Translations under genes and position numbers: made by a program | The notes under the pieces: generated by a model | Told to the model about the DNA's origin: nothing | What the model saw: the letters and a program-made list of their open reading frames with translations, nothing else | Database searches by the model: none | Source of the DNA: Kofleriaceae bacterium | GTDB lineage: Bacteria > Myxococcota_A > Polyangia > Haliangiales > Haliangiaceae | Direction of reading: 5' to 3' | DNA length: 64,000 nt | Assembly (NCBI GenBank): GCA_024762925.1 | Contig: JANTGM010000008.1 | Location: 35,743 to 99,742, forward strand | In this document: piece by piece, positions 2,675 through 64,000 of the stretch | Layout: every line of letters starts with the position of its first letter | Position numbering within the stretch: the stretch's first letter is position 1

Positions 2675-2953
2675 ATGTACCACGGCGCATTCTACATCTG
2701 CCTCTTTCTCACAGCCTGTAGTGGCGGCGACAGCCGTCTAGTTCCAGCGTCAGATCCACAGTTTCAGCTCCTAGAAGCGCCGGAATCGGAGGGCGAATGC
2801 CAGGCCACAGGGGACTGTGAGGCATCTTGTGTCCATAGCTGCATACTCGGGAGCCAAGGCCCAATCACATGCCCAGCGGAGCCAACGGAGCGTCCCGAGC
2901 GACTTGTGGGAGCGAGCTGTGAATGTGAGCAGAGTCGCTGCATCTGGAACTAG
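2675..2953 (+). CDS. Small Cys-rich lipoprotein, unknown function
   Basis: A 92-residue protein starting MYHGAFYICLFLTAC; LTAC is a lipobox, and the short signal decides the start. The mature part has clustered cysteines (GECQATGDCEASCVHSC and later CECEQSRC), suggesting a disulfide-stabilised or metal-binding surface domain. The same frame is open further upstream, but that part overlaps the divergent exonuclease gene and looks random. The TAG stop lies inside the terminal CTAG of the repeat copy at 2950, so the repeat begins exactly where the gene ends. No family recognised. The gene is probably real because of the signal peptide and cysteine pattern. Confidence 0.6.
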   Translation: MYHGAFYICLFLTACSGGDSRLVPASDPQFQLLEAPESEGECQATGDCEASCVHSCILGSQGPITCPAEPTERPERLVGASCECEQSRCIWN

Positions 2954-3132
2954 TGCGCGATCCATAGACATTGATTCGTGATCGCGAACTCAGCTCGTTT
3001 GCTGGCGAGGCAAAAAGAGGGAGTTTGCTGGGGCAAGCGACCGAGGAACAACGAAGAAGACTGGCAGAGCCAGTTTGTCCAGCGGGCGAGAAGACGAGTG
3101 AGCGCGTTCTATCTTCATGAATCGCGCACTAG
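2950..3132 (+). repeat. MITE-like repeat, copy A
   Basis: The element runs from CTAGTGCGCGATCCA to its inverted partner AATCGCGCACTAG, 183 bases. About 150 bases of its left side match copy B (8152-8400, reverse strand) and, as far as the window reaches, copy C (63905 onward). Its right part is shorter than copy B's. It contains a perfect hairpin, ACTGGC-AGA-GCCAGT, at 3060-3074 followed by TT. It has no transposase gene. The termini begin with CTAG, as expected for an IS630-type TA duplication in a CTAG target. The upstream lipoprotein's TAG stop is part of the left CTAG. Confidence 0.85.
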
Positions 3133-3152
3133 TGCGCGATCCATGGACATCA
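3129..3152 (+). repeat. Truncated end of a second MITE-like copy, cut by the IS481 element
   Basis: Directly after the right end of copy A, sharing its CTAG, another left terminus follows (CTAGTGCGCGATCCATGGAC) and continues to about 3151, where the IS481 inverted repeat starts. The rest of this copy is not found on the far side of the IS near 4500, so it was lost. This suggests a second element inserted into the CTAG of the first, then interrupted by the IS. Confidence 0.7.
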
Positions 3153-4500
3153 GTATGAACCCGGAGCATAGGTTCCCAAACGAACTTGGAGCATGGGTGA
3201 CAAGCAAAGGTGTCTCTGCCACATGGCAGCGGTGCCTTGGAAAGAGACTTGTCGCGTGGAACAGAGAAAGAAATTCATCGAAGCGATGCTCGAAGGTAAC
3301 TACAGCCAGACCGAGCTCAGCCGCGAATTCGGCATAAGCCGCAAGACGGCCAGAAAGTGGTGGAAGCGCTTCCAGGAGGAAGGTTTGCTCGGCCTGGTGG
3401 ACCGGGATCGCATCACGTATTCGAGGCCGCATGCGACGAAGCCTGACATGGTGGCGCTCATCGTAGGAGCTCGTGTGAGGCATCCAAGCTGGGGCCCAAG
3501 AAGATTCACGCATGGTTACAAGGGCGCCGCAGCGGCCAGAAACTGCCGGCTGTGAGCACGATAGGGCGCGTGCTCGAGCGCGAAGGAATGGTGCGCCGCA
3601 GGCGCTCTCGACAGCGGCGCAACGACTACTCGGACGGCCTCCACAAACAAGATGCTCCGAACGCAGTTTGGGCTGCCGACTTCAAAGGCCATTTCAAACT
3701 TCGCACCGGCATCAAGTGCTATCTGCTCACGATTTCCGATGGCTGCAGCCGCTTTCTGCTGCGTTGTCACGGCATGCAGCATCCAACGCACGACAATTCC
3801 AAGGCCGTGTTTGAGGCCGCATTTCACGAGTATGGGCTCCCAGGCGTCATGCGAACCGACAACGGAGCGCCGTTTTCGAGCGTCTCAGGCATCAGCATGC
3901 TGTCGCTCTGGTGGATCAAGCTCGGCATCAAACCTGAGCGAATTGAGCGCGGAAAATCGACACAAAATGGCCGCCACGAGCGCATCCACCGGACGCTCAA
4001 AGCCGAGGTTCTGACTGGCAAAACGCCCAAGTCCTCTTTCTGGTCACAGCAGCGCGAGTTCGACCATTTTCGCCAAGAATACAACGAGGAAAGGCCTCAC
4101 GAAGCGCTCGGACAAACTACGCCGTCATCGGTCTACAAACTGTCAGCGAGACGATATCCCACCAAACTTCGTGAGCCCGAATATGGCGACGCATTCACCG
4201 TCCAGCGAGCCACCAACGACGGATCGATCGAAGTCGCTGGCCAAAAAATCCGGCTCTCCATAGTGCTTGCTCAAAAACCCATTGGACTTCTCGAGCAAGA
4301 AGATGGAAGCATGGAGGTTCACTATGGACCGCTGCAGTTGGCAACGATCAGTCGCAAAGGCCGGCTACGAAGAGGCTCGAAACGCCGATCGAGCAAACCC
4401 GCAGCAGAAGAGAAATCACCTGAAACTTCCGTTTCTTAACTACGAAAACCGTCACCCATGCTGCGAGTTTAAGTAGTTACCCATGGTCCGGGTCATACAC
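3153..4500 (+). mobile_element. IS481-family insertion sequence
   Basis: Bounded by imperfect inverted repeats of roughly 47-48 bases: the left end reads TATGAACCCGGAGCAT and the right end, reverse complemented, TATGACCCGGACCAT; both repeats finish with GCATGGGTGAC. Exact outer bases are uncertain by a few nucleotides and I see no convincing target duplication. It holds one transposase reading frame with a -1 disruption. It interrupts a MITE-like repeat on the left and abuts an ISNCY-type element on the right. Confidence 0.8.
3232..4439 (+). pseudogene. IS481-family transposase with -1 frame change
   Basis: The first part, from GTG 3232, encodes a helix-turn-helix region (YSQTELSREFGISRKTARKW) and runs out of frame after RHPSWGP. 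The same protein continues in the -1 frame (KKIHAWLQGRRSGQKLP) through a complete rve-type DDE core: AADFKGHF, RTDNGAPF and GRHERIHRTLKAE, ending at 4439. IS481 transposases are normally one uninterrupted frame of similar total length, so a single-base deletion is the simplest reading. The switch point, however, is G-GGC-CCA at 3492-3498, which fits the X-XXY-YYZ pattern of a -1 slippery heptamer, so programmed frameshifting cannot be excluded. All catalytic residues are intact in the downstream part. Confidence 0.82.
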
Positions 4501-4703
4501 TTATGCCGGGTGTAAACCCAATCTAGAGATGTCCGGTTCTCTGCAATTTGCAGATGTCCGGTCAGAGGGGCTTTTTAGCCCAAGGCACGTCGCTGAAAAT
4601 CGCTCCACCGCCGCTATTTCGGGCCCGGTGAGTGAGCTGGAGGCACCGCGGAACTCTCGTCGTCGGAGCGTCAGCCATCGCGTATAGTCGCCGTGAGGCA
4701 GTA

Positions 4704-5243
4704 GTGGTGGCGCAGCAATCTCTTCCCATAATTCGACCCACGCAAGCGCTCTGGAAGGCGTGGGGCGGCAAAGGGCGGCTCCCAGACGTCGAGAGCTCGC
4801 CACAAGACAGCAGTGAGCGTCCGTGCCGGCTCTGCAACTGGTTTGCTCGCGAGGTGGCGCCGCTGGGCAAGCCGATGGTTCTGACGGCTGAGGCAAGCAC
4901 CATGCTTACGTTACTTCTGCCGCTGAGTGAACTGAGCATGTCGATGGTGATCTTCCGAGAGGCTCTGCAGCGAGAGCTGAGGCGTCTGGAGATTCCGGCA
5001 GAGGCGATTGCGAGCGAGGTGGATGCTCTCGAGGACATCACCATCGCCAAGAACAACGACCGCAGCACCATGGGCTCGCTAACCCAGCTCGCGAGCGACC
5101 TCGAGTACATGGTGGACTACGACCTGGAGCGAGGGCGACAAGTGGATCTGCAGGCCCTGCAAACCAAGCTGAACCAAACACCGCACGTTAAGCGCAGGGA
5201 GTCCTTTGCTGAGGACGCGGTACGCGGTCTCTTTGGCCTCTGA
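4704..5243 (+). CDS. DUF6933 family protein carried inside an ISNCY-type element
   Basis: The protein reads LPIIRPTQAL near the start, a central CNWFAREVAPLGKPMVL segment, a hydrophobic LTLLLPL strand, and the diagnostic AKNNDRSTMGSLTQLASDL near residue 130. These correspond to the DUF6933 pattern of an N-terminal strand, an aromatic 'W.AN' segment, a LLPV-like strand and NNRSVLGSMN. Its function is unknown. Start is GTG 4704 (or GTG 4707), preceded by GTGAGG; upstream frame is open but lacks family similarity. It sits between the element's inverted ends and converges on the transposase, so it travels with the IS. It is intact while the transposase has several disruptions. Confidence 0.68.
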   Translation: MVAQQSLPIIRPTQALWKAWGGKGRLPDVESSPQDSSERPCRLCNWFAREVAPLGKPMVLTAEASTMLTLLLPLSELSMSMVIFREALQRELRRLEIPAEAIASEVDALEDITIAKNNDRSTMGSLTQLASDLEYMVDYDLERGRQVDLQALQTKLNQTPHVKRRESFAEDAVRGLFGL

Positions 5244-5255
5244 CAAGCCACCTGG

Positions 5256-6302
5256 CTAGCCGGCGACCTTCGCTGCGATGCGTTCCTTTTCGCGTTTGCG
5301 AGCACGCGCAGGGACTTTGCCTTGAGCAAGCCGGTCTTTCTGCTTTGCCTTCACCCACCTCATGGCGGCGCCCAGGCGCTTGTTTTCGACGATCTCAGTA
5401 CGAGGCTCGGCCCAGCCCTTATCGAAGAGAGAGCATAGGGAAGGGTGACACCGTCACATCGGAGCTCGACACTGCCATCAATCCACTCGACGACTTCGCA
5501 GGTCTTACGGACCATTTTAAGCGTCTCTGGCGACGGCAAGATTCGATACAGCTTGTGCTTGTAGTGAACCATCAAATCGCCCGTGATCTTCCGGGACTCG
5601 CGCAGCGCCATGGTGTCGTGCAAATAAACTGCGTCTTCGACAGCGCATCTTCGCCTTTGTGTTTCTTCTTCGAGACGCGAAAAATGGCGTGCTTGTCGCT
5701 GTAGAAGCACACGGGCTTGCCGTGCTGGCGGATGTACGATTTCGTTGCCTCGAAGTAATCCAGCGCCGTTTCCGTCGTCACAAATCGAAGCTCCATCAGC
5801 CAACTTGTGGCGTCATCGACGAAAACCAGCAGCGTGCACACCGGGCCGCGATCTTCAAACCACACGCATGCGGACTGCCATCGATTTGAACGAGTTCGCC
5901 GAGGCATTCTCGGCGATTTCGTGGCTGGTAGACGCGCCTGCGGGCGGCTCTCGGAACCCACATGCCGGCCTCGACCATCCAGGCGCGCAGCGTCTCCGTG
6001 GACAGCGAGATCCCGTGAATCTCGAGCAGCTTCTCGTTAGCCAAGGTCGGCCCGAAGTCGCTGTAGTGGCGCTTCACGAGCGCCAGAGCCTTCTTGCGCT
6101 TCGTCCGGGACAAGCGGCGGTTACTGGGAGCGCCACGCCGCTTCGAGCGCAGTCCAGCGGCGCCTTCGGCCTCGAGCGCCCGCATCAGCCGGCGCACCTG
6201 GCGCTCGCCAATGCCCAGCATCTCAGCGGCCTTACGCTGCGTGAGCCGTTAGTCGGCAACGCGCTGCAAAACCTCTAAACGGTTCAATTCCTAGCGACTC
6301 AT
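5256..6302 (-). pseudogene. ISNCY-family transposase, decayed
   Basis: Reading from ATG 6302 (with AAGGAGAT upstream) the protein would start MSR-stop-ELNRLEVLQRVAD-stop-RLTQRKAAEMLG, so two in-frame stops (TAG, TAA) interrupt the N-terminal HTH. It then continues with the ISNCY signature GELVQIDGSPH, changes frame near 5900 to WFEDRGPVCTLLVFVDDAT and FYSDKHAIFRV, changes frame again to TQRRRCAVEDAVYL, and again near 5430 to FDKGWAEPRTEIVENKRLG and the TAG stop at 5256. The DDE-type Asp motifs (QIDGS, FVDDAT, YSDKH) are still readable. At least three frame changes plus two stops mean no functional product. Confidence 0.85.
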
Positions 6303-6628
6303 GACCAGGAGATCTCCTTGAAACATGGCCCGGATATGACACCAAACCGGACATTTCTACTTGGGAGAAACCGGACATTTCTACTTTGGTCTTATGTCTG
6401 GAGTTTACATAATATCAATTATGCGACGCATTGTTGTGGGCGTTACCCAAAGGCGTGCACTGTCTCAGTCCTGCCTGATCTGCCCCAGATCTCGGCATCC
6501 CGCCACCTTCTTCGTCGCGAGCCACCCATGGGTGCGCAGAAACCTCAAGGCCGAGCCCGTCTGGCCGATGCTCTAGTTTGCGTGATGGCCATGTGTACTT
6601 GCCGCTGCGCCTTAAGTTGGAGACGATC

Positions 6629-8155
6629 ATGCCAGTGCCCGGAATCGCCGAGAGTCAGGAAGCCACGTTGCCGCGTGCTCGCAATGAGCACAACTGGCAA
6701 GTGTTGGCCGTTGACGATCAGCCAGAGGTTTTAGCGTCCCTGCAACGGCTGCTTCGGCGTCGTGGTTTCGAGTTGGACTGTTACACAAGTCCGCTTGAGG
6801 CATTGGATGTTCTGCAGAGCGGTTCACACCGCTATGACTTGGTGTTGCTGGACGTCAATATGCCTGAGATGAGCGGCCTGGAGTTGCTGCCAAAGGCAAA
6901 GGAAATTGATGGTTTCCTGCCAGTAGTCATGCTCACGGCCGATGACAGCGCCGAAACGGCAGTGGCCGCGCTCAAAGGCGGCGCGTTCAACTACCTCATC
7001 AAGCCGCTTGATGATCCGGATGCGGTTGCGATTACCCTGGCACGCGCCGGTCATCACTGCAGGCTCCAGCGACGGACTCGCGACCTCGAAAAGAAGGTAT
7101 CGGAGAGCGAGCGCTTTGAGACGCTTGTTGGCTCTACCCCTGCGATGCGCGAGGTTTTTGGACAGATCAGCAAGGTCGCCGATTCTGACGTCAATGTACT
7201 TATACAAGGAGAGTCGGGTACCGGTAAGGAGCTTGTAGCGCGCGCGATTCACGATCGCTCCAGTCGCTCTCAAGGTCCTTTTGTCGCACTCAATTGCGGG
7301 GCGATTCCCGAGGCGCTCATTGATAGCGAGCTGTTTGGGCACACGCGCGGAGCATTCACAGGCGCCACTGGAGCGCGTCCTGGTGTGTTTGCGGAGGCAC
7401 ACGGGGGCAGCCTCTTTCTCGATGAGATTGGTGACGTTCCTCTGCCAGTGCAATTGCGGCTCCTGCGCGTCTTGCAAGAAGGCGAAGTACGCGCGGTTGG
7501 TGGCACGGGCACACGTCCAATCGATGTACGTGTGATCACCGCGACCCACGTCGATTTGGAGCAAGCGACAGCGTCCAAGCAGTTCCGGCTCGATCTCTAT
7601 TACCGCCTCAATGTCGTCAATCTCTCGCTGCCCGCACTTCGCGACCGACTTGACGATGTTCCGATTCTCGCCAGCCATCTCCTCGATAAGCACGCAACGC
7701 GAATTGGTCGCGAGGAGAAGATGCATTTCTCAGTTCGAGCCATGGAGGCGCTGTGCATCTACGATTGGCCCGGCAACGTTCGCGAGTTGGAGAATGCTGT
7801 ACAGCGCGCTCTCGCAATGACGGCTGGCAACCAAATTGATTTGCCCGCCCTTCCACGGCGCATCACTGGCGGCCTTGCAGCGCTCACACGCAACAACTCC
7901 GATGAGTCGATAGGCGTCGTTTCAAACCTTCCGGCAACAGGGCCGGAATTCCCCGACCTAACCTGGACAGACTCACATGGCTTCTCTGATGCCAAGCGGA
8001 TGGCGCTACACGAGTTTGAGCGCGCCTACCTAAAGCGCCTACTTGAGCGCACCAAGGGCAACATCTCCGAAGCTGCTCGAGTTGCGGGCATCGATCGATC
8101 AAACCTTAAGCGTGTGCTCAGCCGACTGGGCTTACGCGGCACGGGAACCTCCTAG
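6629..8155 (+). CDS. NtrC-type sigma-54-dependent response regulator
   Basis: Three domains are complete: a receiver (phospho-acceptor Asp75 in LVLLDVNMPEM), an AAA+ sigma-54 activator domain with Walker A GESGTGKE, the sigma-54 contact loop GAFTGA and Walker-B region GGSLFLDEIGD, and a C-terminal Fis-type HTH (ISEAARVAGIDRSNLKRVL). Start ATG 6629 has GGAG eight bases upstream; an upstream TTG in the same frame lacks an SD. Activated by phosphorylation, it should drive sigma-54 promoters. No kinase is adjacent; the receiver and kinase genes at 8533-10130 follow beyond a repeat. The TAG stop is embedded in the CTAG end of repeat copy B, with the HTH complete, so the insertion did not shorten the protein. 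Confidence 0.92.
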   Translation: MPVPGIAESQEATLPRARNEHNWQVLAVDDQPEVLASLQRLLRRRGFELDCYTSPLEALDVLQSGSHRYDLVLLDVNMPEMSGLELLPKAKEIDGFLPVVMLTADDSAETAVAALKGGAFNYLIKPLDDPDAVAITLARAGHHCRLQRRTRDLEKKVSESERFETLVGSTPAMREVFGQISKVADSDVNVLIQGESGTGKELVARAIHDRSSRSQGPFVALNCGAIPEALIDSELFGHTRGAFTGATGARPGVFAEAHGGSLFLDEIGDVPLPVQLRLLRVLQEGEVRAVGGTGTRPIDVRVITATHVDLEQATASKQFRLDLYYRLNVVNLSLPALRDRLDDVPILASHLLDKHATRIGREEKMHFSVRAMEALCIYDWPGNVRELENAVQRALAMTAGNQIDLPALPRRITGGLAALTRNNSDESIGVVSNLPATGPEFPDLTWTDSHGFSDAKRMALHEFERAYLKRLLERTKGNISEAARVAGIDRSNLKRVLSRLGLRGTGTS

Positions 8156-8400
8156 TGTGCGATCCAAAATGTTTGACCGGCCCTCGCTTGGTTTCTCACC
8201 TTCTAGGCGCTTCGCTCTGCGTTGCTCGTCGGTCACGTATCTCGATACGCACTCGTCTTCTCGCCCGCTGGACAAACTGGCTCTGCCAGTCTTCTTAGTT
8301 GTTCCTCGGTCGCTTGCCCCAGCAAGCTCCCTCTTCCCGCCTCGCCAGAAAACGAGCTGACTTCGCGATCACGAAGCAATGTCCATGGATCGCGCACTAG
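8152..8400 (-). repeat. MITE-like repeat, copy B (full length, reverse orientation)
   Basis: A 249-base element from CTAGTGTGCGATCCA at 8152 to TGGATCGCGCACTAG at 8400. Read on the minus strand, its first 150 or so bases match copies A and C. Its remaining part carries another hairpin (CGTATC-GA-GATACG). Removing the element together with one TA copy restores CCTCCTAG-TTCCC, an intact CTAG in which the NtrC-type gene's TAG stop is unchanged. No transposase gene is present, so movement would need an enzyme supplied elsewhere. Confidence 0.85.
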
Positions 8401-8532
8401 TTCCCGCCTCGTTGTTCGACTGAATATCGGGCGAAAAGCGCAGAGATCGCGGACTTTTACCGCTGAATCCTCAAGCTTGCTCGGCTTGGTCCGATTCCCT
8501 AAACGTAGCAGCACTCGTTAGGAGAGAGGTAC

Positions 8533-8940
8533 ATGGCAGACAACTATTCCATCCTATTGGCAGACGACGAGCCAGACATTCGCAGAGCCCTAAAGCGCTC
8601 TTTGCATGTGCCTGGCTACACAATGCATGAGGCCGGTGACGGCGTTGATGCGCTGGCGCTTCTCAAGAAGACGCCTTGTGACGCCATCATCAGTGACTTC
8701 AATATGCCTCGGATGAATGGGCTCGACTTGCTCACGCAAGTACGGATCATGTATCCGAATATGCTAAGAATTCTTCTTACGGCAAGGGCTGACGTGCACC
8801 TGGCGGTTCGAGCCCTCAATGAAGGCGCCGTGCACCGCTTCTTGCTCAAGCCATGGGATCATGTCGACCTTAAGGGCATTGTTCGAATGGCCCTGCACTC
8901 GATGCAGACCGCGGCCCCAGAGCAACCCGAGGATCGATAG
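8533..8940 (+). CDS. Receiver-only response regulator
   Basis: A 135-residue protein that is almost entirely a receiver domain: acidic pocket LLADDEPD, phospho-acceptor Asp55 in IISDFNMPRMNG, switch Thr in ILLTARAD and conserved Lys in FLLKPW. There is no output domain, so it probably acts by protein contact, as CheY-like relay proteins do. The ATG is preceded by AGGAGAGAGG. It is followed after five bases by a receiver-kinase fusion on the same strand, most likely co-transcribed; the pair suggests a phosphorelay. The gene starts 132 bases after repeat copy B. Confidence 0.88.
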   Translation: MADNYSILLADDEPDIRRALKRSLHVPGYTMHEAGDGVDALALLKKTPCDAIISDFNMPRMNGLDLLTQVRIMYPNMLRILLTARADVHLAVRALNEGAVHRFLLKPWDHVDLKGIVRMALHSMQTAAPEQPEDR

Positions 8941-8945
8941 GAGAA

Positions 8946-10130
8946 ATGGGCAGCGCTGCCGCAACTATGGACTCCGCATTGACGGCGTTGAGTCCATCCT
9001 CGTCGGACAAGTCGTCTCCCGACGCGGAGACGCATGCAGCCAGAATTCTTCTGGCCGATGACGATCGGCAGGTTCGTCGCACGGTTGGCCGGGTCTTGCG
9101 AAAACGGGGCTTCGAGGTGATTGAAGCTGTCGATGGTGTTGAAGCCATGGAGGCCGCAGGAGAGCATCCACCCGATCTTGCGCTTGTCGACCTCCGAATG
9201 CCTCGCAAAGACGGATTCGATGTGGTTCGCGAGCTCAAGGGCAGCAATCCTCGCCTCCCAGTCCTGGTTCTCTCTGGTTGGGATGATGCGGAAGACCGGG
9301 TTCAGGCCTTTGACGTTGGAGCGGACGACTTTATCGCCAAGCCTGTGTACATGAAGGAGCTTCTGCGACGAATTGACGCCTTTGAGCGAACACGCCGTGC
9401 CTACCTGGAACTCCAAGCTCTCAATGAACACGCCGACCACCTTCGATTGTTTGCCGCAGAGGCCGCTGCCCTGCTCGCTCACGACCTCAACAACGGACTG
9501 AGCATTGCCTCGGCAAACATGCAGTTCATCGACGAAGAGCTGCGTGAGACGAAAGGTGATCCAGAACTTGTGGAAGCATCCTCTGCAGGAAGACGCGCCC
9601 TTCGACGCATGATTGGGCTTGTCGCCAACTTCGTGGACATTTCTCGGCTTGAGGACGCGGCGCTCCAAGTCGTGCGCTTTCCAACAAAAGTCGGTGATCT
9701 TCTGAAGAGCACTGGGCAAATCCATGAGACCAGTCGAAACGATATCGAGGGCCTCACCGTCTCCTGCGACATGGACCTCGTTTGCGAGATTGACCCCATG
9801 CTAACCGAGCGTGTGCTGCACAATCTCCTCAACAACGCCACTCGCTATGTTGATGTGGGGGGGCGAATTGGTGTCGAGGCCTATCTCGAAGATGATGGAG
9901 AAACGCTCTTCATTGGCGTCGGCAACACGGGGGCTGGCATTCCCCACGAAAAGCGCGATGGTCTCTTCGACAAATACGGCAAAGCGGGCGATGGGAAATC
10001 GCAACGCGGCATGGGACTCTACTTCTGCAGGCTCGCCTGCGAAGCACACGGTGGCAGCATTCGCATCGAAGACTCGCCCGACTTTGCGACGCTATTCGCG
10101 ATTCGCCTGTCTATCGCTAGCCAGGGTTAG
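8946..10130 (+). CDS. Receiver-histidine kinase fusion (soluble)
   Basis: An N-terminal receiver (residues 33-150, acceptor Asp82 in LVDLRMPRKDG, Lys in FIAKPV) is followed by a kinase with His179 in LLAHDLNNGLS, an N-box (LHNLLNNATRY) and a G-box (QRGMGLYFCRLA). No membrane helix is present. This order, receiver before kinase, fits a protein that is phosphorylated by another kinase and then controls its own kinase output, making it a likely partner of the receiver-only protein just upstream. The ATG at 8946 has GGAG only two bases away, so ATG 8967 is an alternative. Its stop overlaps the stop of the convergent dnaK-like gene within TTAG at 10127-10130. Confidence 0.87.
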   Translation: MGSAAATMDSALTALSPSSSDKSSPDAETHAARILLADDDRQVRRTVGRVLRKRGFEVIEAVDGVEAMEAAGEHPPDLALVDLRMPRKDGFDVVRELKGSNPRLPVLVLSGWDDAEDRVQAFDVGADDFIAKPVYMKELLRRIDAFERTRRAYLELQALNEHADHLRLFAAEAAALLAHDLNNGLSIASANMQFIDEELRETKGDPELVEASSAGRRALRRMIGLVANFVDISRLEDAALQVVRFPTKVGDLLKSTGQIHETSRNDIEGLTVSCDMDLVCEIDPMLTERVLHNLLNNATRYVDVGGRIGVEAYLEDDGETLFIGVGNTGAGIPHEKRDGLFDKYGKAGDGKSQRGMGLYFCRLACEAHGGSIRIEDSPDFATLFAIRLSIASQG

Positions 10131-11671: not shown

Positions 11672-11680
11672 CGTGGCTTC

Positions 11681-55174: not shown

Positions 55175-55446
55175 CAATTGAAGCGGTAGTTCATTCCATA
55201 CAGATTGCTCATCCACATGACGATCTTACCGGAGACGCTCGGAGATGACTTGCCTGGCGCGCTGAGATACCCATACAGGTGTGCAACGCTGTGGTGTCCT
55301 GAAGGATCCGCTGGATTCAACCTCGCCAATCGTATGAAGCGGCCCATTCCCAACACAATGCTCGAGCCGACAACCTCAGAACCGCCCGTGGCGCGGCGCT
55401 GTGGCGGATGCATGAGTGCGGGGAGTCCATACGCGACCGGAACCAT
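55174..55446 (-). CDS. Possible small protein coupled to the next gene
   Basis: Reading from ATG 55446 gives 91 residues (MVPVAYGLPALMHPPQRRAT, GGSEVVGSSIVLGMGRFIRL and ending LYGMNYRFN). The stop overlaps the downstream start (TGATG), which argues for real translation. The SD is weak (GAG). It may instead be the C-terminal remnant of a longer gene cut by the IS3 event. The opposite strand is also open here, which lowers confidence. Confidence 0.35.
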   Translation of the reverse strand: MVPVAYGLPALMHPPQRRATGGSEVVGSSIVLGMGRFIRLARLNPADPSGHHSVAHLYGYLSAPGKSSPSVSGKIVMWMSNLYGMNYRFN

Positions 55447-55525
55447 TCTCAATGGCGAAGTCTGTGTTTGGCGGTGAGTGGATCCCCCTTGGGGATAGCA
55501 ACGATCTTCTCTAACACCGCTCGGC

Positions 55526-55957: not shown

Positions 55958-56335
55958 CGTTCGTTCTCGCGAATGAAAAGCGCCACAGATTTTTTAAGCA
56001 CTTCCTTCTCCTTTCGGAGCTGTGCCACTTCCTTGCGAAGGCGTTCAAGTTCCTCGTCCTTGCCTTCGCCTCGACCGTTGGTTGCAGCAACCGCCATGTC
56101 TCCAAATCGCTTGCGCCACTCGTAAAGCTGGCTGGCCGCGACGCCCAAGCTCTTCGCGATTTCGGCAGCGGACTGCTCGCCTCGATCTAAGAGAAGGCGA
56201 ACTGCCTCACGCTTGAATTCTTCTGTGTATCGTTTGCTCTTCTTGGCCATGTTGGGCACCTTTCTTGAGGGTAAACCCTCTTTTTCGGTGTCCAAAGAAA
56301 CGGGGAAAGCTCACAAAGTTGGACTCGGAGCCCCG
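55865..56335 (-). mobile_element. IS3-family element remnant
   Basis: Comprises orfA, the first 31 codons of orfB and the upstream non-coding end. The catalytic part of orfB and the distal inverted repeat are missing. The outer boundary near 56335 is approximate because only one end remains. The element cannot move by itself. Confidence 0.65.
55954..56250 (-). CDS. IS3-family transposase OrfA
   Basis: 99 residues from ATG 56250 (MAKKSKRYTEEFKREAVRLL) with an HTH (AAEIAKSLGVAASQLYEWRK) and a C-terminal leucine-zipper-like coiled coil (ELERLRKEVAQLRKEKEVLK), the standard OrfA layout. It overlaps orfB by four bases (ATGA). OrfA alone is not an active transposase but binds inverted repeats and may inhibit related elements. 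An upstream in-frame Met at 56295 exists; the family starts at 56250. It is preceded by AAAGGTG. Confidence 0.85.
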   Translation of the reverse strand: MAKKSKRYTEEFKREAVRLLLDRGEQSAAEIAKSLGVAASQLYEWRKRFGDMAVAATNGRGEGKDEELERLRKEVAQLRKEKEVLKKSVALFIRENER

Positions 56336-56431
56336 TCCATCTGAGAGATTGCACTTTTCTGACTTCCAGAGAATCCCAACGGGCTCAGAAAGAGTTAACG
56401 GCTTGTGTCTCCGTCGTGATAGGTAGCGTCT

Positions 56432-57262
56432 GTGTCATTGCAAGACTTAATCAATACCGTCCACAGCAAAATCTATCCCACTGATGAGCGCAAGGCGGAG
56501 ATGGACGGCCTCATCGGTCCTGCCGCCATCCTTGTAAAACGCGACTTTCGTACCTTTGAAGGTGACGCCCTGGTAGGTGGCCGCATCGATCACGAAGCAC
56601 TTCGGGAAACGGGCGCTGCTCTCCTAGCAGAGCTCAAGGATCTCCGAGAACTCGAGATCAGAGAATTCGAGTTGCCTGACCTAGGCCCTATCTCTCAGAT
56701 GACGAGTCTGAGCAAGATCCACTTGATGGAGGTTGCTGCAAGGGATCTCTCACCACTTTCCTGCCTCCCCGGCCTCACCTCCCTCACTATCCTTTGGAAC
56801 GCCGTGCCGCTGACCTTGGCACCGCTACCGACACTGGAAACCCTCGCACTCTCCTGGTCCAAGGTGGAAGATTTTGGCCCTCTCGCGACCTGCCATCATC
56901 TCCGAGTATTGACGCTGACAGGAACGTCAATTGACAGCCTTGCGCCCTTAGCTGCGCTTCGCCAACTCAAGGAGCTCACCTTGAGTGACACCGCCATCTC
57001 AACGATTTCCCCTCTGGGCGAAACTGAGAATCTTCAGAAGCTCGCTCTCAATGGCACACAAGTCTCCGATCTTGCTCCGCTGAAGACCCTCTCGCGTCTG
57101 GAGTATGTCTGGCTCGGTGAGAGCGAGGTAAGCAATCTGGATGCGCTTGAGGATTTGCCTCTCAAAGAGGTCTCTATTGGACAAGATCCATCGCCGGCAC
57201 TTCGTCGAGCCAGTAAGAAACTACAACGGAAAAGACCCGACATTCACATTTACGAAGGCTAA
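56432..57262 (+). CDS. Leucine-rich repeat protein
   Basis: 276 residues, GTG start. After 70 leading residues come about eight LRRs of some 20-22 residues with L-x-x-L-x-L-x-x-T patterns, e.g. LEIREFELPDLGPISQMTSL, LRVLTLTGTSIDSLAPLAAL, LKELTLSDTAISTISPLGET and LQKLALNGTQVSDLAPLKTL, as in bacterial internalin-type repeats. No signal peptide, so it is likely cytoplasmic. It neighbours ankyrin-like and beta-repeat genes, consistent with a protein-interaction or immunity cluster. It ends shortly before the tRNA terminator. Confidence 0.82.
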   Translation: MSLQDLINTVHSKIYPTDERKAEMDGLIGPAAILVKRDFRTFEGDALVGGRIDHEALRETGAALLAELKDLRELEIREFELPDLGPISQMTSLSKIHLMEVAARDLSPLSCLPGLTSLTILWNAVPLTLAPLPTLETLALSWSKVEDFGPLATCHHLRVLTLTGTSIDSLAPLAALRQLKELTLSDTAISTISPLGETENLQKLALNGTQVSDLAPLKTLSRLEYVWLGESEVSNLDALEDLPLKEVSIGQDPSPALRRASKKLQRKRPDIHIYEG

Positions 57263-57387
57263 TCCTTGTAAGGGCCCCCTAGTGAGGAGCGTTACGAGGC
57301 CACTGCGGCAGCTCTGGAGGCAATCAAAGTGTAGTACCAACGAAGTCGGACACGGGTCGGACAAAAGTCGGACACGGTCAAGAAAGC

Positions 57388-57421
57388 CAAAAGGCCCTCC
57401 GGTTAAGTACCGAAGAGCCTT
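57388..57421 (-). terminator. Rho-independent terminator of the tRNA-fMet gene
   Basis: On the minus strand AAGGCTCTTCGGT-ACTTA-ACCGGAGGGCCTT forms a 13-pair stem (with three G-U pairs) and is followed by TTTTGG. It begins nine bases after the tRNA CCA end and belongs to the tRNA transcript. Confidence 0.85.
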
Positions 57422-57429
57422 CTAGTTTT

Positions 57430-57506
<77 letters not shown>

Positions 57507-57622
57507 TCAAGTGAGGAGCTTTCTACGCGACCGAGCGGGCTCTGTCAACACCTTGGACGAATTCGGGAGCAAATAAATACTGAATCATGCTCTGAGGATA
57601 GGGCTGATATTCTGACCTTCTC

Positions 57623-59902
57623 GTGGCCTCATCGACTCCGCCAAGGCGACCGTGGTTTCGCCGCGTCAACGCTCCTCTATGGGCCGCGATGATCGCTACG
57701 GTCGTTTGCGCCCTCCTCTACACGGCACATCGGGCGGGCATTCTCGAAGTTCCAGGCCTCGTTTCGTGGGAGCAACGGTCCATCGATATCCGCTTTCGAC
57801 TGCGCGGCACAGTGGCCCCAAAGGACGATCGAGTCATCATCGTCGCCTTGGACAACGCCACCCGCAGAGGCATGCCCTCGCTGTGGCAAAACCGTCGCGG
57901 CTTCTCCAAACTCATTCGCAAGATCAGCGAGTCCAAGCCGCGAGCGTTTGGTGTTGATGCGTTCTTTGCGTCTCCCGAAATCAACCTGAGCAGCAAGACG
58001 GTGGCAGAGGTGCGCCGTGCCCTCGAGCAGCTTGGCACAGAAGAGGCGCTCTCTGCCGCCGGCACCGTTGCCAGCAAAGCCCTGGCGAGTGTCGACGCGG
58101 AAACGCGCGGTGATGCCGTGCTTGCGGATGCAGTCGGAGAGAGCGAATCCCTTGTGCTCGCCCTGCTCTTCTACTTGGGAGGAACGCCGCTTGCCCCTGG
58201 CACCGAGGAGCGCGTTGGCACTGAGCATGCCCGAGTCGATGAATCTCTCTTCCTCGATCAACCAAAGGACCAGCGGCCTCCACAGGCCTCTGGTCTGGTC
58301 GCTCCACTGCAAGTGATTGGCGAGAAGACCCGACATATGGGCCACGTGAATGTTCGCCACGATGCTGATGGCATGGTGCGAGAAGCGCCGCTGCTGATTG
58401 AAAGCGGTGGCCGTTTCTACCAGAGCCTTAGCCTCAAACTCGCAAGCATGGAGCGCGGAGTTCACACGAGCTATGCAAGTGGGAACTCCTTTGTGACTTT
58501 GGGCGATCAGAAGATTCCCTTGGACTCACAGACCTTCGCGCGCATCGCCTATCTCGGCCCCAATAAGACGTTTCCGCGAATCTCCGCCGTGGAAGTCATG
58601 GAGTCAAATGGGCCGAACCCTGCACTGCACGACAAGATCGTTCTCTTGGGCTACACCGATTCCGCACGCGACAAGATAACCACTCCTCTTGAGCGTCGTC
58701 TCGACGGTGTGGAATTGCACGCAACCCTTGTGCACAATCTCTTACACGGAGAGCTTCTGCGGCACACTGGAGCAAGCACCACAATACTCGTCATTCTGCT
58801 TTTTGGAAGCCTTCTGGCGGTTCTACAGCTGCGCTCGGTGCGCAAGCGCGGCACTTGGATGGTGGGGATTGGATCGCTCTCCCTCTTCACTGCCTACTGC
58901 ATTGTTGCGCAACTCGTTTTCTCGAGGACCAATCTCGTCATCGAAGTGGCGGCGCCCTTGGTGAGCGCGCTTGTCATAACGCTCACCGCACTCAGTACCG
59001 CTTTGGCCACAGAGGGGCGTGAGAAGGCGCAGCTTCGCTCGGCCTTTGGTCAATACCTGCAATCCACCTTGGTTGAACGGTTGCTCCAAGATCCCGCTCG
59101 CCTGCGTCTGGGTGGCCAACGACGGGAACTCACGGTCCTCTTTTCCGACATCCGCGGCTTCTCTCGCTTCTCGGAACAGCTGGAACCAGAACTTCTCTCA
59201 GACTTCCTCAATGAGTATCTCACGCCAATGACCGAGCTTGTCATGCAGGAATCGGGAATGCTGGACAAGTACATCGGCGACGCAGTGATGGCGGTCTACG
59301 GTGCCCCGCTGGCCGTGGACAATCACGCCGCTCGCGCCTGTGCAACGGCCTTGGGCATGCAAGCGGCGTTGGTGCCTCTGAACAAGAGCTGGAAAGACCA
59401 CAACCTGCCAGAGATTCAAATTGGAATCGGAATCAACACGGGGACGATGAGTGTTGGAAATATGGGTTCGGAGCGTCGCTTTGACTACACGGTAATGGGC
59501 GATGCTGTGAACTTAGGAGCACGTCTCGAAAGCCTCACCAAGACCTATGGTGTGAAGGTTCTTGTCGGTGCAAACACGATGCAAGCTGCCAAGCAAGAGT
59601 TCGTCTTTCGTGAACTTGATCGGGTTCGCGTGATGGGACGAAGCGCCGCAGCCAGTGTGTATGAGCTTTGTGGCACCACCGATGCCCCCAGTCTCACGAA
59701 CGCCCAACGCGATCTCTTTGCCCAAGGGCTAGCCGCGTATCGCGAACAAGACTGGGAGCGGTGCGAGAGCCAGCTGCGCGAGTTTCTGAGGCAAGTTCCC
59801 GATGACGGACCGAGCCAGACCCTCATCGAACGGCTGTCCGAGTTGCGGATGAGTGACCTTGGAGAGGACTGGGATGGCGTCTACGATCAGCGCGAGAAGT
59901 AG
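57623..59902 (+). CDS. CHASE2-domain adenylate/guanylate cyclase
   Basis: 759 residues, GTG start. N-terminal membrane helix (LWAAMIATVVCALLYTA), a CHASE2 sensor domain (about 45-380: SIDIRFRLRG, FGVDAFFASPE, GHVNVRHDADGMVRE, KIVLLGYTDSARDK), three more helices (about 385-465) and a class III cyclase (LTVLFSDIRGFSRFSEQ, LDKYIGDAVMAVYGAP, YTVMGDAVNLGARLES). The metal Asp residues and the adenine-site Lys (DKYIGD) are present, so it should make cAMP. It has a C-terminal TPR-like tail. The dual-cNMP-domain protein at 19561 is a possible effector. It starts 116 bases from the tRNA. Confidence 0.93.
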   Translation: MASSTPPRRPWFRRVNAPLWAAMIATVVCALLYTAHRAGILEVPGLVSWEQRSIDIRFRLRGTVAPKDDRVIIVALDNATRRGMPSLWQNRRGFSKLIRKISESKPRAFGVDAFFASPEINLSSKTVAEVRRALEQLGTEEALSAAGTVASKALASVDAETRGDAVLADAVGESESLVLALLFYLGGTPLAPGTEERVGTEHARVDESLFLDQPKDQRPPQASGLVAPLQVIGEKTRHMGHVNVRHDADGMVREAPLLIESGGRFYQSLSLKLASMERGVHTSYASGNSFVTLGDQKIPLDSQTFARIAYLGPNKTFPRISAVEVMESNGPNPALHDKIVLLGYTDSARDKITTPLERRLDGVELHATLVHNLLHGELLRHTGASTTILVILLFGSLLAVLQLRSVRKRGTWMVGIGSLSLFTAYCIVAQLVFSRTNLVIEVAAPLVSALVITLTALSTALATEGREKAQLRSAFGQYLQSTLVERLLQDPARLRLGGQRRELTVLFSDIRGFSRFSEQLEPELLSDFLNEYLTPMTELVMQESGMLDKYIGDAVMAVYGAPLAVDNHAARACATALGMQAALVPLNKSWKDHNLPEIQIGIGINTGTMSVGNMGSERRFDYTVMGDAVNLGARLESLTKTYGVKVLVGANTMQAAKQEFVFRELDRVRVMGRSAAASVYELCGTTDAPSLTNAQRDLFAQGLAAYREQDWERCESQLREFLRQVPDDGPSQTLIERLSELRMSDLGEDWDGVYDQREK

Positions 59903-59919
59903 GCCTGCCACCTGGCGCA

Positions 59920-59948
59920 TTGACCCAAAAGCTTCGCATTGCTAAACA
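59920..59948 (+). promoter_or_regulatory. Possible sigma-70-like promoter before marR-type gene
   Basis: TTGACC (59920-59925), a 17-base spacer and TAAACA (59943-59948) precede the GTG start at 59955 by six bases. That would give a leaderless or very short-leader mRNA. The -10 match is only partial. Confidence 0.35.
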
Positions 59949-59954
59949 TCTTAG

Positions 59955-60419
59955 GTGGGCAAGAAGAAGCACATCGACCGCATCGTCGAAACTGCCATCT
60001 ACCTGCAAAGCGAGACCAGGCGGCTCGCCAAGGAGCAATGTGCGCTCCACGGCATTACCGCAACTCAACTCGCCGTCATCAAGCTGCTCATAGAAATTGG
60101 CGATCTTAGCCTCTCGGAGTTGAGCAAGAAAATGGCGGCGCGCAACAGCACCATCACAGGCATTGTCGATCGAATGGCAACTGCTGACCTCGTGAAGCGT
60201 GCTCGAAGCCAAGAGGATGGTCGCGTCTGGATGATCCAGCTCACGGACAAGGGGCGCGACATTGCTACCAAGGTCGACGTTGCACCGTGGGATCTGCTTA
60301 GAAATTCTCTTAGTTCCCTCACGCAATCGGAAGTCAATCAACTCATCGGCCTTTTGGGAAAGCTTGCAGCGCACGTCGAGCAAGCAGCCTGCAATGGCGA
60401 AGCAAGCGAGGCACCATGA
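59955..60419 (+). CDS. MarR-family transcriptional regulator
   Basis: 154 residues with a winged [43 protein letters not shown] (recognition helix) and [18 protein letters not shown] (wing). GTG start. Its last four bases (ATGA) overlap the next gene. MarR proteins usually repress their own operon and respond to a small ligand, here possibly the substrate of the beta-keto-acid cleavage enzyme next to it. Confidence 0.88.
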
Positions 60420-61282
60420 ACGCAACTGACAAGGTCATCATTTCCTGCGCCCTGACCGGGGCTGTCACGTCGAAGAGCCACTGCCCAGCCATTCCCTATA
60501 CGCCCGTGGAAATCGCCGAAGAAGCTGAGCGGGCCTACAACGCTGGGGCTGCCATCGTGCACATCCACGCGCGCACCGATGAAGGCGCCCCGAGCTGGGA
60601 TGCCGAGGTCTTTGCAAGCATCCAGCAAGAAGTCACAAAGCGCTGCCCTGTGCTCATCAACTGGTCCACAGGGGGCGCTGGCCCTATGAGCGAGCGGGTC
60701 GCCCACCTGGATCGAACCAAACCGCATATTGCCGCCCTAAACATGGGCTCTATGAATTACGCGAAGTGGCGCCAAAGCAAGGGCGCATTTGCATTCAAAT
60801 TTGTCTTTCAAAACTCCTTCGATGACATCATCGCCTTTGCCAAAGCGATTCAGGCTTGTGGCGCAAAGCCCGAGATGGAGTGCTTCGATACAGGACACGT
60901 CTACTCCCATCGCGTCCTCGAGGACATGGGCCTCATTGCGAAGCCGTATCACTTCTCCTTCATCATGGGCGTTCTTGGTGGGATCCCGGCCACGGCGCGT
61001 CATCTGTCATTTCAAGCGGAGAATGTGCCAGCCGGATCGCGCTGGAAGGTCATTGGCATCTCGCGAGATCAGTGGAGGCTGTGCATGGCGGCCTTGAGCC
61101 TCGGCGGTGACATCCGCGTCGGCCTCGAAGACAACTTCTATCTTCCAAGCGGCGAGATGGCGCGCTCGAATGGGGAGCTTGTCGAAGAAGCCAGCAAGCT
61201 TGCACAGCTCTCAGGACGCAGTGTAGCAACGGTGGATGAAGCGAGAGCCCTCTTGTGGCCCAACGGAGGCGGGAATTTCTGA
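60416..61282 (+). CDS. Beta-keto acid cleavage enzyme (BKACE, DUF849)
   Basis: 288 residues: [40 protein letters not shown] (zinc His-His), [18 protein letters not shown] and [19 protein letters not shown] are family-typical, including the Glu that aids catalysis. BKACE enzymes condense acetyl-CoA with a beta-keto acid to give acetoacetate and a new CoA ester (Kce cleaves 3-keto-5-aminohexanoate in lysine breakdown). The exact substrate is unclear. It overlaps the MarR gene by four bases. Confidence 0.9.
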
Positions 61283-62120
61283 TTCCATTCCATACGACGG
61301 CCCGTATCGCCACGAGCTGCAAACGACCGCTGCCATTATCAAGAAGGCTGGTGCGATTCCCCTGCGCTACCACGGCCTTGCCCTTAGCGTTGAGCGCAAA
61401 GAAGGGGACGAGCCGGTCACCCTCGCAGATCGCGAGTGCTCAGAGTTTCTCGTAGCTGCGATGACCAAGGCGTTCCCCGAGGATGTCATCATTTCCGAAG
61501 AGGCTGCAGACGATCTTAGGCGTCTCGATGCCGAGCGTGTCTGGTACATCGATCCGATCGATGGCACCAAGTCGTTCATCGCAGGTGGCACAGGTTATTG
61601 CGTCATGCTGGGCCTTGCCATTGAACACCGCCCGGTCTTTGGCCTCCTCTACCAGCCCAACTTGGGCACTCTGATCTATGGATGCGCAGGTGGCGGGGCC
61701 TGGGTTCAACGCGGCTTGGACGAGCCCAGACGACTGCAGTGTTCCGCACTCCGCGATCCTGGCCACGCCCGTCTCCTATCCAAGCACGGCGGCGACCGGA
61801 AGGCGATCCGAGAAGCCTTTGGCTTTGCCGAGGATGAACCACTCGGGGCGATCGGAATCAAGCTGGCCGCCATGGCCCTTGGCGCCTGCGAACTGTACGT
61901 AAACCCCGCAAGCAACTGTTCGAGCTGGGATGTCTGCGGCCCAGAAATTCTCTTAGAGGAGGCCGGAGGGAAACTAACGGATATGCATGGCCAGCCAATT
62001 CGCTACGACAACGCGGCCACAACTAGCCTGCAGGAGGGCCTGGTCGCATCCAACGGCCCAATGCACGACACCTTCGTGGCGCGCCTCACAGCGCTCTGCC
62101 CCAAGCCATCCCCCGCATAA
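61236..62120 (+). CDS. Inositol-monophosphatase-family phosphatase (CysQ/IMPase-like)
   Basis: Li-sensitive phosphatase fold: [23 protein letters not shown], the metal motif [15 protein letters not shown] and the C-terminal [17 protein letters not shown]. The last motif has C where A is usual in WDxAA. Members dephosphorylate inositol phosphate, PAP (CysQ) or histidinol phosphate. The start at 61236 overlaps the preceding gene by 47 bases; a later start would be needed to avoid this but no good ATG/GTG with SD is seen, so it is tentative. Confidence 0.82.
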
Positions 62121-62557
62121 TGCAGAGCCCGGCGCCACACGATCTGATTCTTTATGACGGCGTCTGCGGTCTCTGCGACCGCTTTGTGCAGTTTCTGCTG
62201 GCTCGTGATTCGAGCGACCGCTACCGGTTTGCGGCTCTGCAGTCTTCACTTGGGCGGGAAGCCGTCATGCGTCATGGGGGCGATCCTGATGCGGTAAGCA
62301 CCGTCTACCTGATCGAGCATTGGGGCACGGACCGAGAACAAGCAAAGACCCGGGGCAAGGCGGCTCTCTACGCCATCGACAAGCTGGGCGGAGGCTGGCG
62401 CGTCCTGGGGCTTTTGCGCGTCTTGCCAGCGTTCCTGCTCAACTTTGGCTATGCCGTCGTGGCTAGGTTGCGCTATCGGCTCTTTGGGAAACTCGATGCA
62501 TGCCCCATCCCATCACCGGCAACGAAGCACAAGTTCCTCGACGCAGAGACGAAGTGA
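62120..62557 (+). CDS. DCC-family thiol-disulfide oxidoreductase (DUF393)
   Basis: 145 residues with the DxxCxxC signature (YDGVCGLCDRFVQFL) and the conserved RFAALQSSLGRE stretch plus VLPAFLLNFGY. Its start overlaps the preceding stop (TAATG). These proteins are predicted to be redox-active but are poorly studied. It is probably in the same operon. Confidence 0.85.
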   Translation: MQSPAPHDLILYDGVCGLCDRFVQFLLARDSSDRYRFAALQSSLGREAVMRHGGDPDAVSTVYLIEHWGTDREQAKTRGKAALYAIDKLGGGWRVLGLLRVLPAFLLNFGYAVVARLRYRLFGKLDACPIPSPATKHKFLDAETK

Positions 62558-62573
62558 CTTACACTTTCTGTTG

Positions 62574-63908
62574 GTGGCCCGTCGTTTTCTAGTTCTGATT
62601 TTCCTCATGGCATGCTCTCGCCAGTCGCCAGCACCGATGTGGGGGGCGCCGGTACCACAGGTGCTGGCTGCCAAGACTGTCAAACCGCCCCCGGAGCCTG
62701 ATCCGCCCCTGGAGCCTGATCCGCCCCTCGAACGGGTCTTTGCGCCAGGTGACTCACTAGAGGTTGCTCACAGAGGCGTCGATGGGGATGTTCTTATAGC
62801 GCCTTCACTGCGCTCCCCGAAGACCTTCGGCACCACTCTCTTAAGTCGCGGGCTTCACGTGCTCAAGTTTCGCGCAGACGGCACCGTTCGATGGAGCGTG
62901 CAACTCACGACCAATCCAGAGGCACGTGCGACATCTGTTGCGGTCGATAGCTCGGGCCACATCTACCTGGCTGGATCGTTCGCTAGAGAGTTTCGTGTCG
63001 GTGACGAAGTCATGATGGCACAAGGGGACCGGGACGTGTTCGTTGTGAGTCTTGATTTGCATGGAACGCTGCGCTGGATGCGTTCTCTTGGCGGGGTGGC
63101 CCGGGAAGAGGTCTTGGATATCTCGATTTCGGAAGATGCGAACCGACTCGTCGTCGGCGGCTGGGCCGAAAGCACATTCGTGTTCAACAGAACTCGATAC
63201 AGCGGCAGGGGGTCCGCAAAGGACGGCTTTGCTGCGATCTACGACCTGGATGGCAAGCCAGAGTGGTGCAAGCGATTTATTGGGCGCGGCGCCAAGCGTG
63301 TGCGTGCGGTTGGATTCGATCAAGACGAGCTTATCGTCACGGGCACATTTATCGATTCACTGTACCTTGGGACGGAAACTCTCAAATCTCAGGGAGAATC
63401 AGATATATTCTTAGCACGCTTTCACGCCAACGGTGAGCTGCAATGGGAACGCCACTGGGGCAGCCGCAAGGCCGATGTCGTCCGCGCCATGCGTGTGAAC
63501 CCAGATGGTGGCGTGACGCTCGCTGCGGCGTCGCACGATGATTTGCGCATCGGCGATACGCACCTGCCGAGCCTAGGAGGCAGTGACCTGCTTCTGTGGC
63601 AAGTGGGGCGCGATGGCACCACAGGGAAATCGCTCCGACTCGGAGGGACTGGTGATGAGGTGCCTACCGAAATCCTCCAGCATGGCCCCACCAAAGTCGC
63701 TGGTGTACACGTTGGCGCGACCAACCTGGGGTTCGAACCCCTCCCGGGTGGCACCTTGCCCAGGGCCTTCACGATTTCCTTGGACGAGGAGTTCCGCGTG
63801 ATTCGCAGTGGCACCACAGGCTGGCAGCAGTTGTACTTGGGCGCGGGGGGTGTGGTAGATGATGTCGAATTGGGCAAGACCGAAGCTGGGACCATTCTCC
63901 GCTACTAG
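62574..63908 (+). CDS. Beta-propeller-like lipoprotein
   Basis: GTG 62574 (or TTG 62571) gives a lipoprotein signal (VARRFLVLIFLMAC). After a Pro-rich linker with a tandem EPDPPL repeat, the mature part has about six similar blades of the SBBP type (GLHVLKFRADGTVRWSVQL, DVFVVSLDLHGTLRWMRSLG, DGFAAIYDLDGKPEWCKRFI, DIFLARFHANGELQWERHWG). Such proteins are often surface receptors or adhesins. It follows the DCC gene after 16 bases. Its TAG stop is part of the CTAG end of repeat copy C. Confidence 0.75.
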   Translation: MARRFLVLIFLMACSRQSPAPMWGAPVPQVLAAKTVKPPPEPDPPLEPDPPLERVFAPGDSLEVAHRGVDGDVLIAPSLRSPKTFGTTLLSRGLHVLKFRADGTVRWSVQLTTNPEARATSVAVDSSGHIYLAGSFAREFRVGDEVMMAQGDRDVFVVSLDLHGTLRWMRSLGGVAREEVLDISISEDANRLVVGGWAESTFVFNRTRYSGRGSAKDGFAAIYDLDGKPEWCKRFIGRGAKRVRAVGFDQDELIVTGTFIDSLYLGTETLKSQGESDIFLARFHANGELQWERHWGSRKADVVRAMRVNPDGGVTLAAASHDDLRIGDTHLPSLGGSDLLLWQVGRDGTTGKSLRLGGTGDEVPTEILQHGPTKVAGVHVGATNLGFEPLPGGTLPRAFTISLDEEFRVIRSGTTGWQQLYLGAGGVVDDVELGKTEAGTILRY

Positions 63909-64000
63909 TGCGCGATCCATGGACATTGATTCGTGATCGCGAAGTCAGCTCGTTTGCTGGCGAGGCGGGAAGAGGGAGTTTGCTGGGGCAAGCGACCGAG
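63905..64000 (+). repeat. MITE-like repeat, copy C (runs off the window)
   Basis: Starts CTAGTGCGCGATCCATGGAC at 63905 and matches copies A and B for all 96 visible bases, with the ACATTG and GATCGCGAAGTCAGCTCG stretches. As with copies A and B, the upstream gene's TAG stop (63906-63908) is within the CTAG. The right end lies outside the window. Confidence 0.85.

Follow-up and report, generated by a model that had tools for sequence, protein, structure and literature searches.

The 64,000-nucleotide stretch of a Kofleriaceae bacterium genome analyzed here (hereinafter, the window; assembly GCA_024762925.1, contig JANTGM010000008.1, positions 35,743 to 99,742, that is, C8:35743-99742) encompasses three copies (A, B and C) of a short repeat that is present in more than 100 whole or broken copies across the genome, mostly at CTAG tetranucleotides and often exactly on predicted TAG stop codons. 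These repeats are very probably miniature inverted-repeat transposable elements (MITEs) with ends like those of a fragmented, likely IS630 element of the same genome, the transposase of which likely spread them to CTAG sites. The mechanism is that of an ordinary MITE, and it is the host that is the unusual part.

All three copies in the window, first reported in a preliminary description made from the sequence alone, are real and occupy the positions given there. The borders are CTAG at both ends of copies A and B and at the visible end of copy C, and in each case the TAG stop of the upstream gene lies within the border CTAG, as originally noted (for copy A, the stop is that of a predicted 92-aa open reading frame (ORF) that was not called by the gene finder). 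The orientations also hold: copies A and C meet the gene by the left end and copy B by its other end.

A high-copy family of short inverted repeats

The genome assembly comprises 6.79 Mb in 246 contigs (completeness 98.3, contamination 2.12). From it, a sample of 1.44 Mb on 90 contigs was fetched, mostly picked for holding element ends, which inflates the densities in the sample; contigs C1 and C2 (375 kb), like the window, were included on other grounds. The genome-wide search with copy B that the preliminary description had suggested revealed a multi-copy family, with matches in at least 52 places (40 of the 422 candidates scored), and the end pattern CTAGTGCGCGATCC, allowing up to one mismatch, was found at 270 sites across the genome compared to 3 sites for a reversed-pattern control. 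A profile built from the longer paired copies yielded 201 matches in the 1.44 Mb sample, of which 60 are full length and the others partial.

The consensus is a 175-bp imperfect inverted repeat without a transposase gene, the left and right terminal inverted repeats of which match at 17 of 22 bases. It is predicted to fold end to end, with the two halves pairing over most of the length (-86.5 kcal/mol vs -59.9 kcal/mol for shuffled sequences; z -6.56). The mean divergence of the full copies from the consensus is 5.8% (median 4.0%), and away from contig edges, 67 of the 221 ends lack a partner end, through truncation, chimerism or otherwise. Chimeric and truncated copies join the ends of two families, often with CTAG at the new border (for example, L057:1394-1514 and L135:88-150). 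The genome contains at least five more inverted-repeat families that begin and end at CTAG (L114:15-157, L114:154-318, L121:4369-4476, L071:4899-5072 and L079:17620-17790); the ends of these further CTAG families are TGTGGGATCCAG/TGTGCGGCTCAG, TGTCGGATTC, TGTCTAGTTC, AGCGTATCTC and CTAGTTTTCGTCCC.

Borders of the elements

CTAG flanks 29 of the 60 full copies at both ends and 24 at a single end, CGAG flanks 5 at both ends, and 2 have neither; in the 24 one-sided copies, the opposite flank is mostly CGAG, CCAG or CTCG, and an unrelated tetranucleotide occurs at one side in 3 of the 60. CTAG also prevails where it was not part of the search: in the 30 best similarity hits, for which CTAG was not required, the left flank is CTAG in 24, CGAG in 4, CTCG in 1 and unreadable in 1. 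Junctions between adjacent elements are CTAG in 15 and CGAG in 11 of 30 cases, and lone flanks are CTAG in 66 and CGAG in 11 of 88, with two further flanks that could not be judged; the border variants are thus more common where two elements adjoin.

An IS630-type transposase would excise the element and insert it at a TA dinucleotide, reportedly with a preference for CTAG, duplicating the target; this is known for the family and is proposed here for the repeat. Duplication of the target upon insertion would thus account for CTAG at both borders. Judged from the junctions, CTAG borders are compatible with duplication of TA or of the entire CTAG alike.

A probable IS630 partner

The DDE_3 domain, the catalytic domain of IS630, has four matches in the genome, on contigs C87, C40 (two) and C170. 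The C87 match is a broken gene, the C40 matches are two parts in different frames, and the C170 match is a fragment at the contig start that scores under the cut-off. The NCBIfam IS630 model recognizes the C87 piece (E 1e-12) and the two C40 pieces (4e-6 and 1e-9), all below the full-length cut-off, as would be expected of pieces. In the protein database, the IS630 piece has 18 matches, one of which is apparently the query's own record, the next one being 82% identical and encoded on a 1048-base contig.

Two other contigs carry an end much like that of the repeat. On C71, CTAG is followed by TGCGCGATTCAAAGGCATGG, then by 62 bases and the start of a helix-turn-helix (HTH) protein, within which the contig ends; C216 carries, elsewhere in the genome and also at a contig end, a 99% identical second copy of this end and HTH start. 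The first 15 bases of the end that precedes this transposase-like start (CTAGTGCGCGATTCA), including CTAG, are identical to the right end of the repeat; when 22 bases are compared, the C71 end agrees with either end of the element at 16 positions and with the right end of the C40 IS630 at 15. The C40 IS630 gene is followed, directly after its stop codon, by the right end ...CTATGCCTATGATCCAGACA and CGAG. The IS630-type origin and CTAG targeting put forward in the preliminary description are thus borne out in part: IS630 remnants and a transposase start with a repeat-like end are both present in the genome, the link between the two being inferred. For the IS630 with the same terminal repeats that was to be sought, the C71/C216 start is a candidate (15 of 15 and 16 of 22 bases, with a likely but weak IS630 identity), the C40 element matching at 12 or 13 of 22. 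Related ends do exist in the genome, on C71 and C216; their absence would have been one of the outcomes contrary to the proposal of the preliminary description.

Several observations weigh against the derivation of these repeats from an IS630 element. The C40 IS630 right end matches the two repeat ends at only 12 and 13 of 22 positions and has CGAG beside it, and the C71/C216 start matches IS630 weakly (E 0.003), about as well as it matches other HTH families, such as an IS66 accessory protein and IS481, so that its placement in the same element as the DDE_3 parts is no more than likely. No intact IS630 linking the end TGCGCGATTCAAAGGC to a DDE_3 gene was found, C71 and C216 running off their contigs and C40 and C87 being broken, and the 107-aa transposase piece has no relative in the genome_contigs collection, which may exclude the window's own genome. 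At the borders, CTAG is missing from one or both sides of 31 of the 60 full copies, CGAG occupies 11 of the 30 element-element junctions and 11 of the 88 lone flanks, and the border variants are one-sided in the left-to-right sense of the element (among 221 ends, CGAG 35 vs CTCG 3), an orientation bias that is not predicted by simple TA duplication. Even the element at htpG, described below, is bordered by CTAG only toward the gene, its far border being CGAG. Furthermore, 5 of the 188 flanked ends lie more than 30 bases inside a predicted gene, 12 of the 211 element CTAGs are gene-internal, and the copies, with a mean divergence of 5.8%, may no longer be active.

Insertions relative to genes and stop codons

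Genes were called with a home-made codon-usage model trained on long ORFs, by which small genes are missed; by these calls, about 85% of the sequence is coding. Among the 2155 non-element CTAGs located off segment ends, 1437 are within genes, 503 between genes and 215 at stops, compared to 12 gene-internal, 142 intergenic and 57 stop sites among the 211 CTAGs of elements. The elements form 197 clusters, 102 of which have 300-base flanks on both sides; 8 of these 102 overlap a gene end, and 94 have CTAG at one or both borders. Of these 94 insertions, 44 are located on a predicted gene stop and none spans a predicted gene. Because an insertion that splits a gene could escape the span count, we also searched for coding-like open frames on the same strand on either side of the site. 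Such frames flank 5 of the 94 insertions, compared to 44 of 502 intergenic CTAGs, 30 of 215 stop CTAGs and 604 of 914 deep gene-internal CTAGs; therefore, insertions in genes are rare or absent. The other outcome that the preliminary description had named as contrary to its proposal, with most copies inside genes or off CTAG, is thus not what is seen.

That description also suggested that TAG preceded by C may be a safe harbor because CTAG is rare inside bacterial genes, which is wrong for this genome, where two thirds of the non-element CTAGs are genic. With genic CTAG so plentiful, the harbor is more likely to result from the loss of harmful insertions than from scarcity of genic targets. 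Insertions that span or split genes would presumably be lost by selection, as probably would those near gene starts. If an element lands on the end of a gene (...C-TAG), the gene-side copy of the duplicated target would retain the in-frame stop and leave the protein unchanged; with the stop codon preserved, such insertions are probably almost harmless. With TAG the commonest stop codon and often preceded by C, stop codons would make up a large share of the tolerated CTAG sites.

In six convergent gene pairs, a single CTAG provides both stops (C137:7900, C120:8510, C1:71436, L052:515, C138:12171 and C143:6205), and the element at L099:1501-1682 separates two convergent genes, both of which terminate in the CTAGs at its borders. 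A left-end bias at stops that was apparent among the full-length copies is weaker in the larger set of ends (28 of 104 left ends vs 16 of 84 right ends abut a stop, without a formal test).

Alternative explanations

The location of so many copies on stops could indicate an element that actively recognizes stop codons or gene 3' ends. The comparison with other CTAGs, which the preliminary description had called for, does show an excess of insertions at stops over all non-coding CTAGs (44 of 94 vs 215 of 718; odds ratio 2.06, p 0.0014), and among the insertions with CTAG at both borders, 22 of 40 are on stops (p 0.0014). However, the excess is weaker against non-coding CTAGs away from gene starts (odds ratio 1.76, p 0.057) and is not significant against CTAGs located within 200 bp downstream of genes (odds ratio 1.43, p=0.17), and therefore, the element need not recognize stop codons. 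Avoidance of the regions upstream of genes is the simpler account of the excess, and we consider stop recognition very improbable. The same lack of significant enrichment over nearby downstream CTAGs also speaks against the possibility that the repeat is a functional RNA hairpin, in the 3' untranslated region or as a terminator, that is retained at gene ends because it helps expression. The strong predicted fold and the 44 of 94 insertions that abut a stop codon are what such an RNA would display, but the pattern of sequence change among the copies (56 of 60, the 4 divergent ones being excluded) is not: single changes break a pair in 161 cases and keep it in 58, double changes keep pairing in 5 cases and break it in 4, and the rates of change at paired and unpaired positions are similar (0.039 and 0.048, respectively). 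A functional RNA is disfavored because the changes mostly break pairs and the paired and unpaired rates are similar. Moreover, the counts of left and right ends at stops given above reveal no clear orientation preference, and a search of the window, which contains copies A and B and part of C, gave no Rfam match to the repeat at the gathering score, only a tRNA being found. Altogether, an RNA function is very unlikely to explain the family.

A transposition mechanism of the REP/REPIN kind, in which a Y1 (HUH) transposase sets a hairpin beside a tetranucleotide without target duplication, would readily produce tetranucleotide borders, inverted-repeat ends and tandem arrays, all of which are seen here, and would also be compatible with the mixed CTAG and CGAG borders in one orientation. 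Nevertheless, Y1_Tnp (PF01797) has no matches in this 98.3% complete genome (other HUH families were not searched), the same search being positive in 5 of 14 control genomes, and the ends of the repeat match those of the likely IS630 element instead. This makes a REP/REPIN-like origin extremely unlikely, and the repeats are best interpreted as MITEs of the IS630 kind.

Empty sites in related genomes

The family was not found in the two congeners, where the end pattern gave 1 hit vs 3 for the control in G001 and 2 vs 2 in G002; in the other 33 relatives, it gave 0 to 14 hits, with 0 to 41 for the controls. With the whole of copy B as the query, G002 gave no matches and G001 gave three, all short and interior, and the end pattern has no matches in the viral_contigs and genome_contigs collections, from which the window's own genome was possibly left out. 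Two repeats of G001 (L111:1480-1620 and L112:1430-1570) have a similar interior (GAGCAACGAAGAGCGAAGCGCC) and other ends, CTAG being absent from the 420 bases displayed around each; from these interior-alike repeats, it appears that the interior of the repeat may be older than its ends.

Empty sites, which the preliminary description had considered decisive if seen in related strains, were found at two loci, where the congener proteins are 68-77% identical, so that the comparison is with distant relatives and not at strain level. The htpG gene (C226:2679-4622) ends in ...GCCTAG, followed by an element (C226:2504-2678); htpG of G001 ends in ...GGCTAG followed by other DNA with the element absent, and that of G002 ends in TAA, without an element. 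The gene that adjoins this element is complete, HtpG covering 614 of the 614 positions of the family model. Downstream of nuoN (C1:78578-79984), two elements occupy the 651 bases before the next gene; in G002, the distance from the TAG of nuoN to the ATG of the next gene, the orthologue of which is 83.5% identical (413 residues), is 38 bases, with no element. For copy B, no usable orthologous junction was found in the congeners, and a search within the genome for the joined flanks of 40 insertions gave only self-matches, at three insertions.

TAG as the commonest stop codon

The preference of the host for TAG is the most unusual observation of this analysis. TAG accounts for 639 of the 1083 predicted stops on all fetched contigs, 152 of 282 on C1 and C2, and 27 of 58 in the window segment; in bacteria, TAG typically terminates about 20% of genes, according to passages of PMC3549826 and PMC9348620. 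The frequency of insertions at stops is likely explained by this preference, because CTAG stops are plentiful when TAG is the commonest stop. A special preference for C before TAG was rejected: C precedes 49% of TAG, 52% of TAA and 23% of TGA stops, so that CTAG is no more favored than CTAA. In small samples of long ORFs, the two congeners also lean to TAG (24 of 47 and 11 of 27); among the other members of the family, TGA leads in G004, G005, G006, G007 and G008 (5 to 14 ORFs each), TAA in G003 (48% GC content; 6 of 14), and TAG in G009 (3 of 3). It is conceivable, albeit unlikely, that the TAG-rich genus and the CTAG-inserting element are mutually fitted, with stops as the main harmless targets and the element load in turn favoring genes that end in CTAG because such genes survive insertion unharmed.

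Comparison with known elements

The closest published analogue that we found, by mode and not by membership, is RUP of pneumococcus with IS630-Spn1. As outlined in parts of PMC2229807, RUP of Streptococcus pneumoniae is a 107-bp, high-copy, intergenic, non-autonomous element with IS630-Spn1-like ends and TA-containing sites; the repeat described here is similarly short, multi-copy and non-autonomous, with ends like those of a likely IS630-family element. It differs from RUP in length (175 bp), host and CTAG context, and in that insertion on stop codons is frequent, likely since TAG is the commonest stop. The IS630 of Shigella sonnei belongs to the family with which our repeat is probably linked and is reported to favor the TA in 5'-CTAG-3' (Tenzen and Ohtsubo 1991, by its title, as listed in PMC2170065), the tetranucleotide at which the repeat is mostly located, and a passage of PMC2170065 describes insertion of ISY100, another IS630 family member, at TA with duplication. 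Unlike the Shigella case, only broken transposase genes are seen here, and short non-coding copies dominate.

We know of no CTAG-specific IS630 partner for the ERIC/RU-1 and Correia elements. These are also short intergenic repeats, treated as MITEs in the relevant part of PMC2229807, and the likeness is by description, not by sequence. MITEPsy1 of Pseudomonas syringae is presented in sections of PMC3189936 as a 100-bp MITE that duplicates CTAG or YTAA, with an origin suggested from ISPsy2 and a listing as IS5 with a question mark; unlike those of the present repeat, its terminal repeats begin with GGAAGG. A literature search found no description of an IS630 MITE on stop codons, most subscription journals being outside its coverage.

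The three copies in the window

The coordinates of the copies and of the adjoining genes are collected in Table 1. Relative to TGCGCGATCCA, the right end of copy A (TGCGCGATTCA) and the left end of copy B as it lies in the window (TGTGCGATCCA) each have one mismatch; in the orientation of the element, this end of copy B, at 8156, is the variant end opposite the canonical left end (TGTGCGATCCAAAATG). The 92-aa ORF before copy A is absent from the codon-usage gene calls. Part of the gene upstream of copy C matches the SBBP-repeat beta-propeller lipoprotein model, far under the cut-off. Copy C itself is broken by the assembly, the end of the window being the end of contig C8 (99742).

Table 1. 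Copies of the repeat in the window and the genes that adjoin them
Feature	Position	Strand	Remarks
Lipoprotein-like ORF, 92 aa, predicted only	2675..2953	+	TAG stop 2951-2953 within left CTAG of copy A
Copy A, full-length 175-bp element	2950..3132, body 2954-3128	+	CTAG flanks on both sides; left end toward upstream ORF
Start (left end) of second, tandem copy	3129..3151	+	CTAG 3129-3132 common to both copies
Sigma-54-dependent response regulator, Fis-type HTH near C-terminus	6578..8155	+	TAG 8153-8155 within left CTAG of copy B
Copy B, longer variant, 241-bp body 8156-8396	8152..8400	-	Canonical left end at 8396, minus strand
Predicted gene upstream of copy C	62445..63908	+	TAG 63906-63908 within CTAG of copy C
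Copy C, left part of element, cut by end of contig C8	63905..64000	+	

About 20 bases of the second, tandem copy remain before an IS481-like insertion. The IS481-like transposase, encoded by two frames that overlap (3193-3555 and 3552-4439), thus resides inside a broken second copy of the repeat (window 3133-4498). IS481 was considered and rejected as the partner element: its own ends (GTATGAACCCGGAGC / CCGGGTCATAC, judged by eye) are unlike those of the repeat. A possible further transposase-like remnant is located on the minus strand at 5572-6221 of the window, where an HTH_32 match (5796-6221) overlaps an ORF (5572-5961) that has no Pfam match.

Implications

A host in which TAG dominates is relevant to the 'TAG paradox', an open question about the use of stop codons in bacteria, as framed in portions of PMC9348620 and PMC3549826; a lineage that departs from the rule of about 20% lends itself to testing which of release factors, mutation and mobile DNA governs the choice of stop codon. 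The repeat family itself shows how a transposon could multiply to many copies in a gene-dense genome and do little damage: where the target is palindromic and becomes duplicated, the stop codon of the gene that is hit would be restored.

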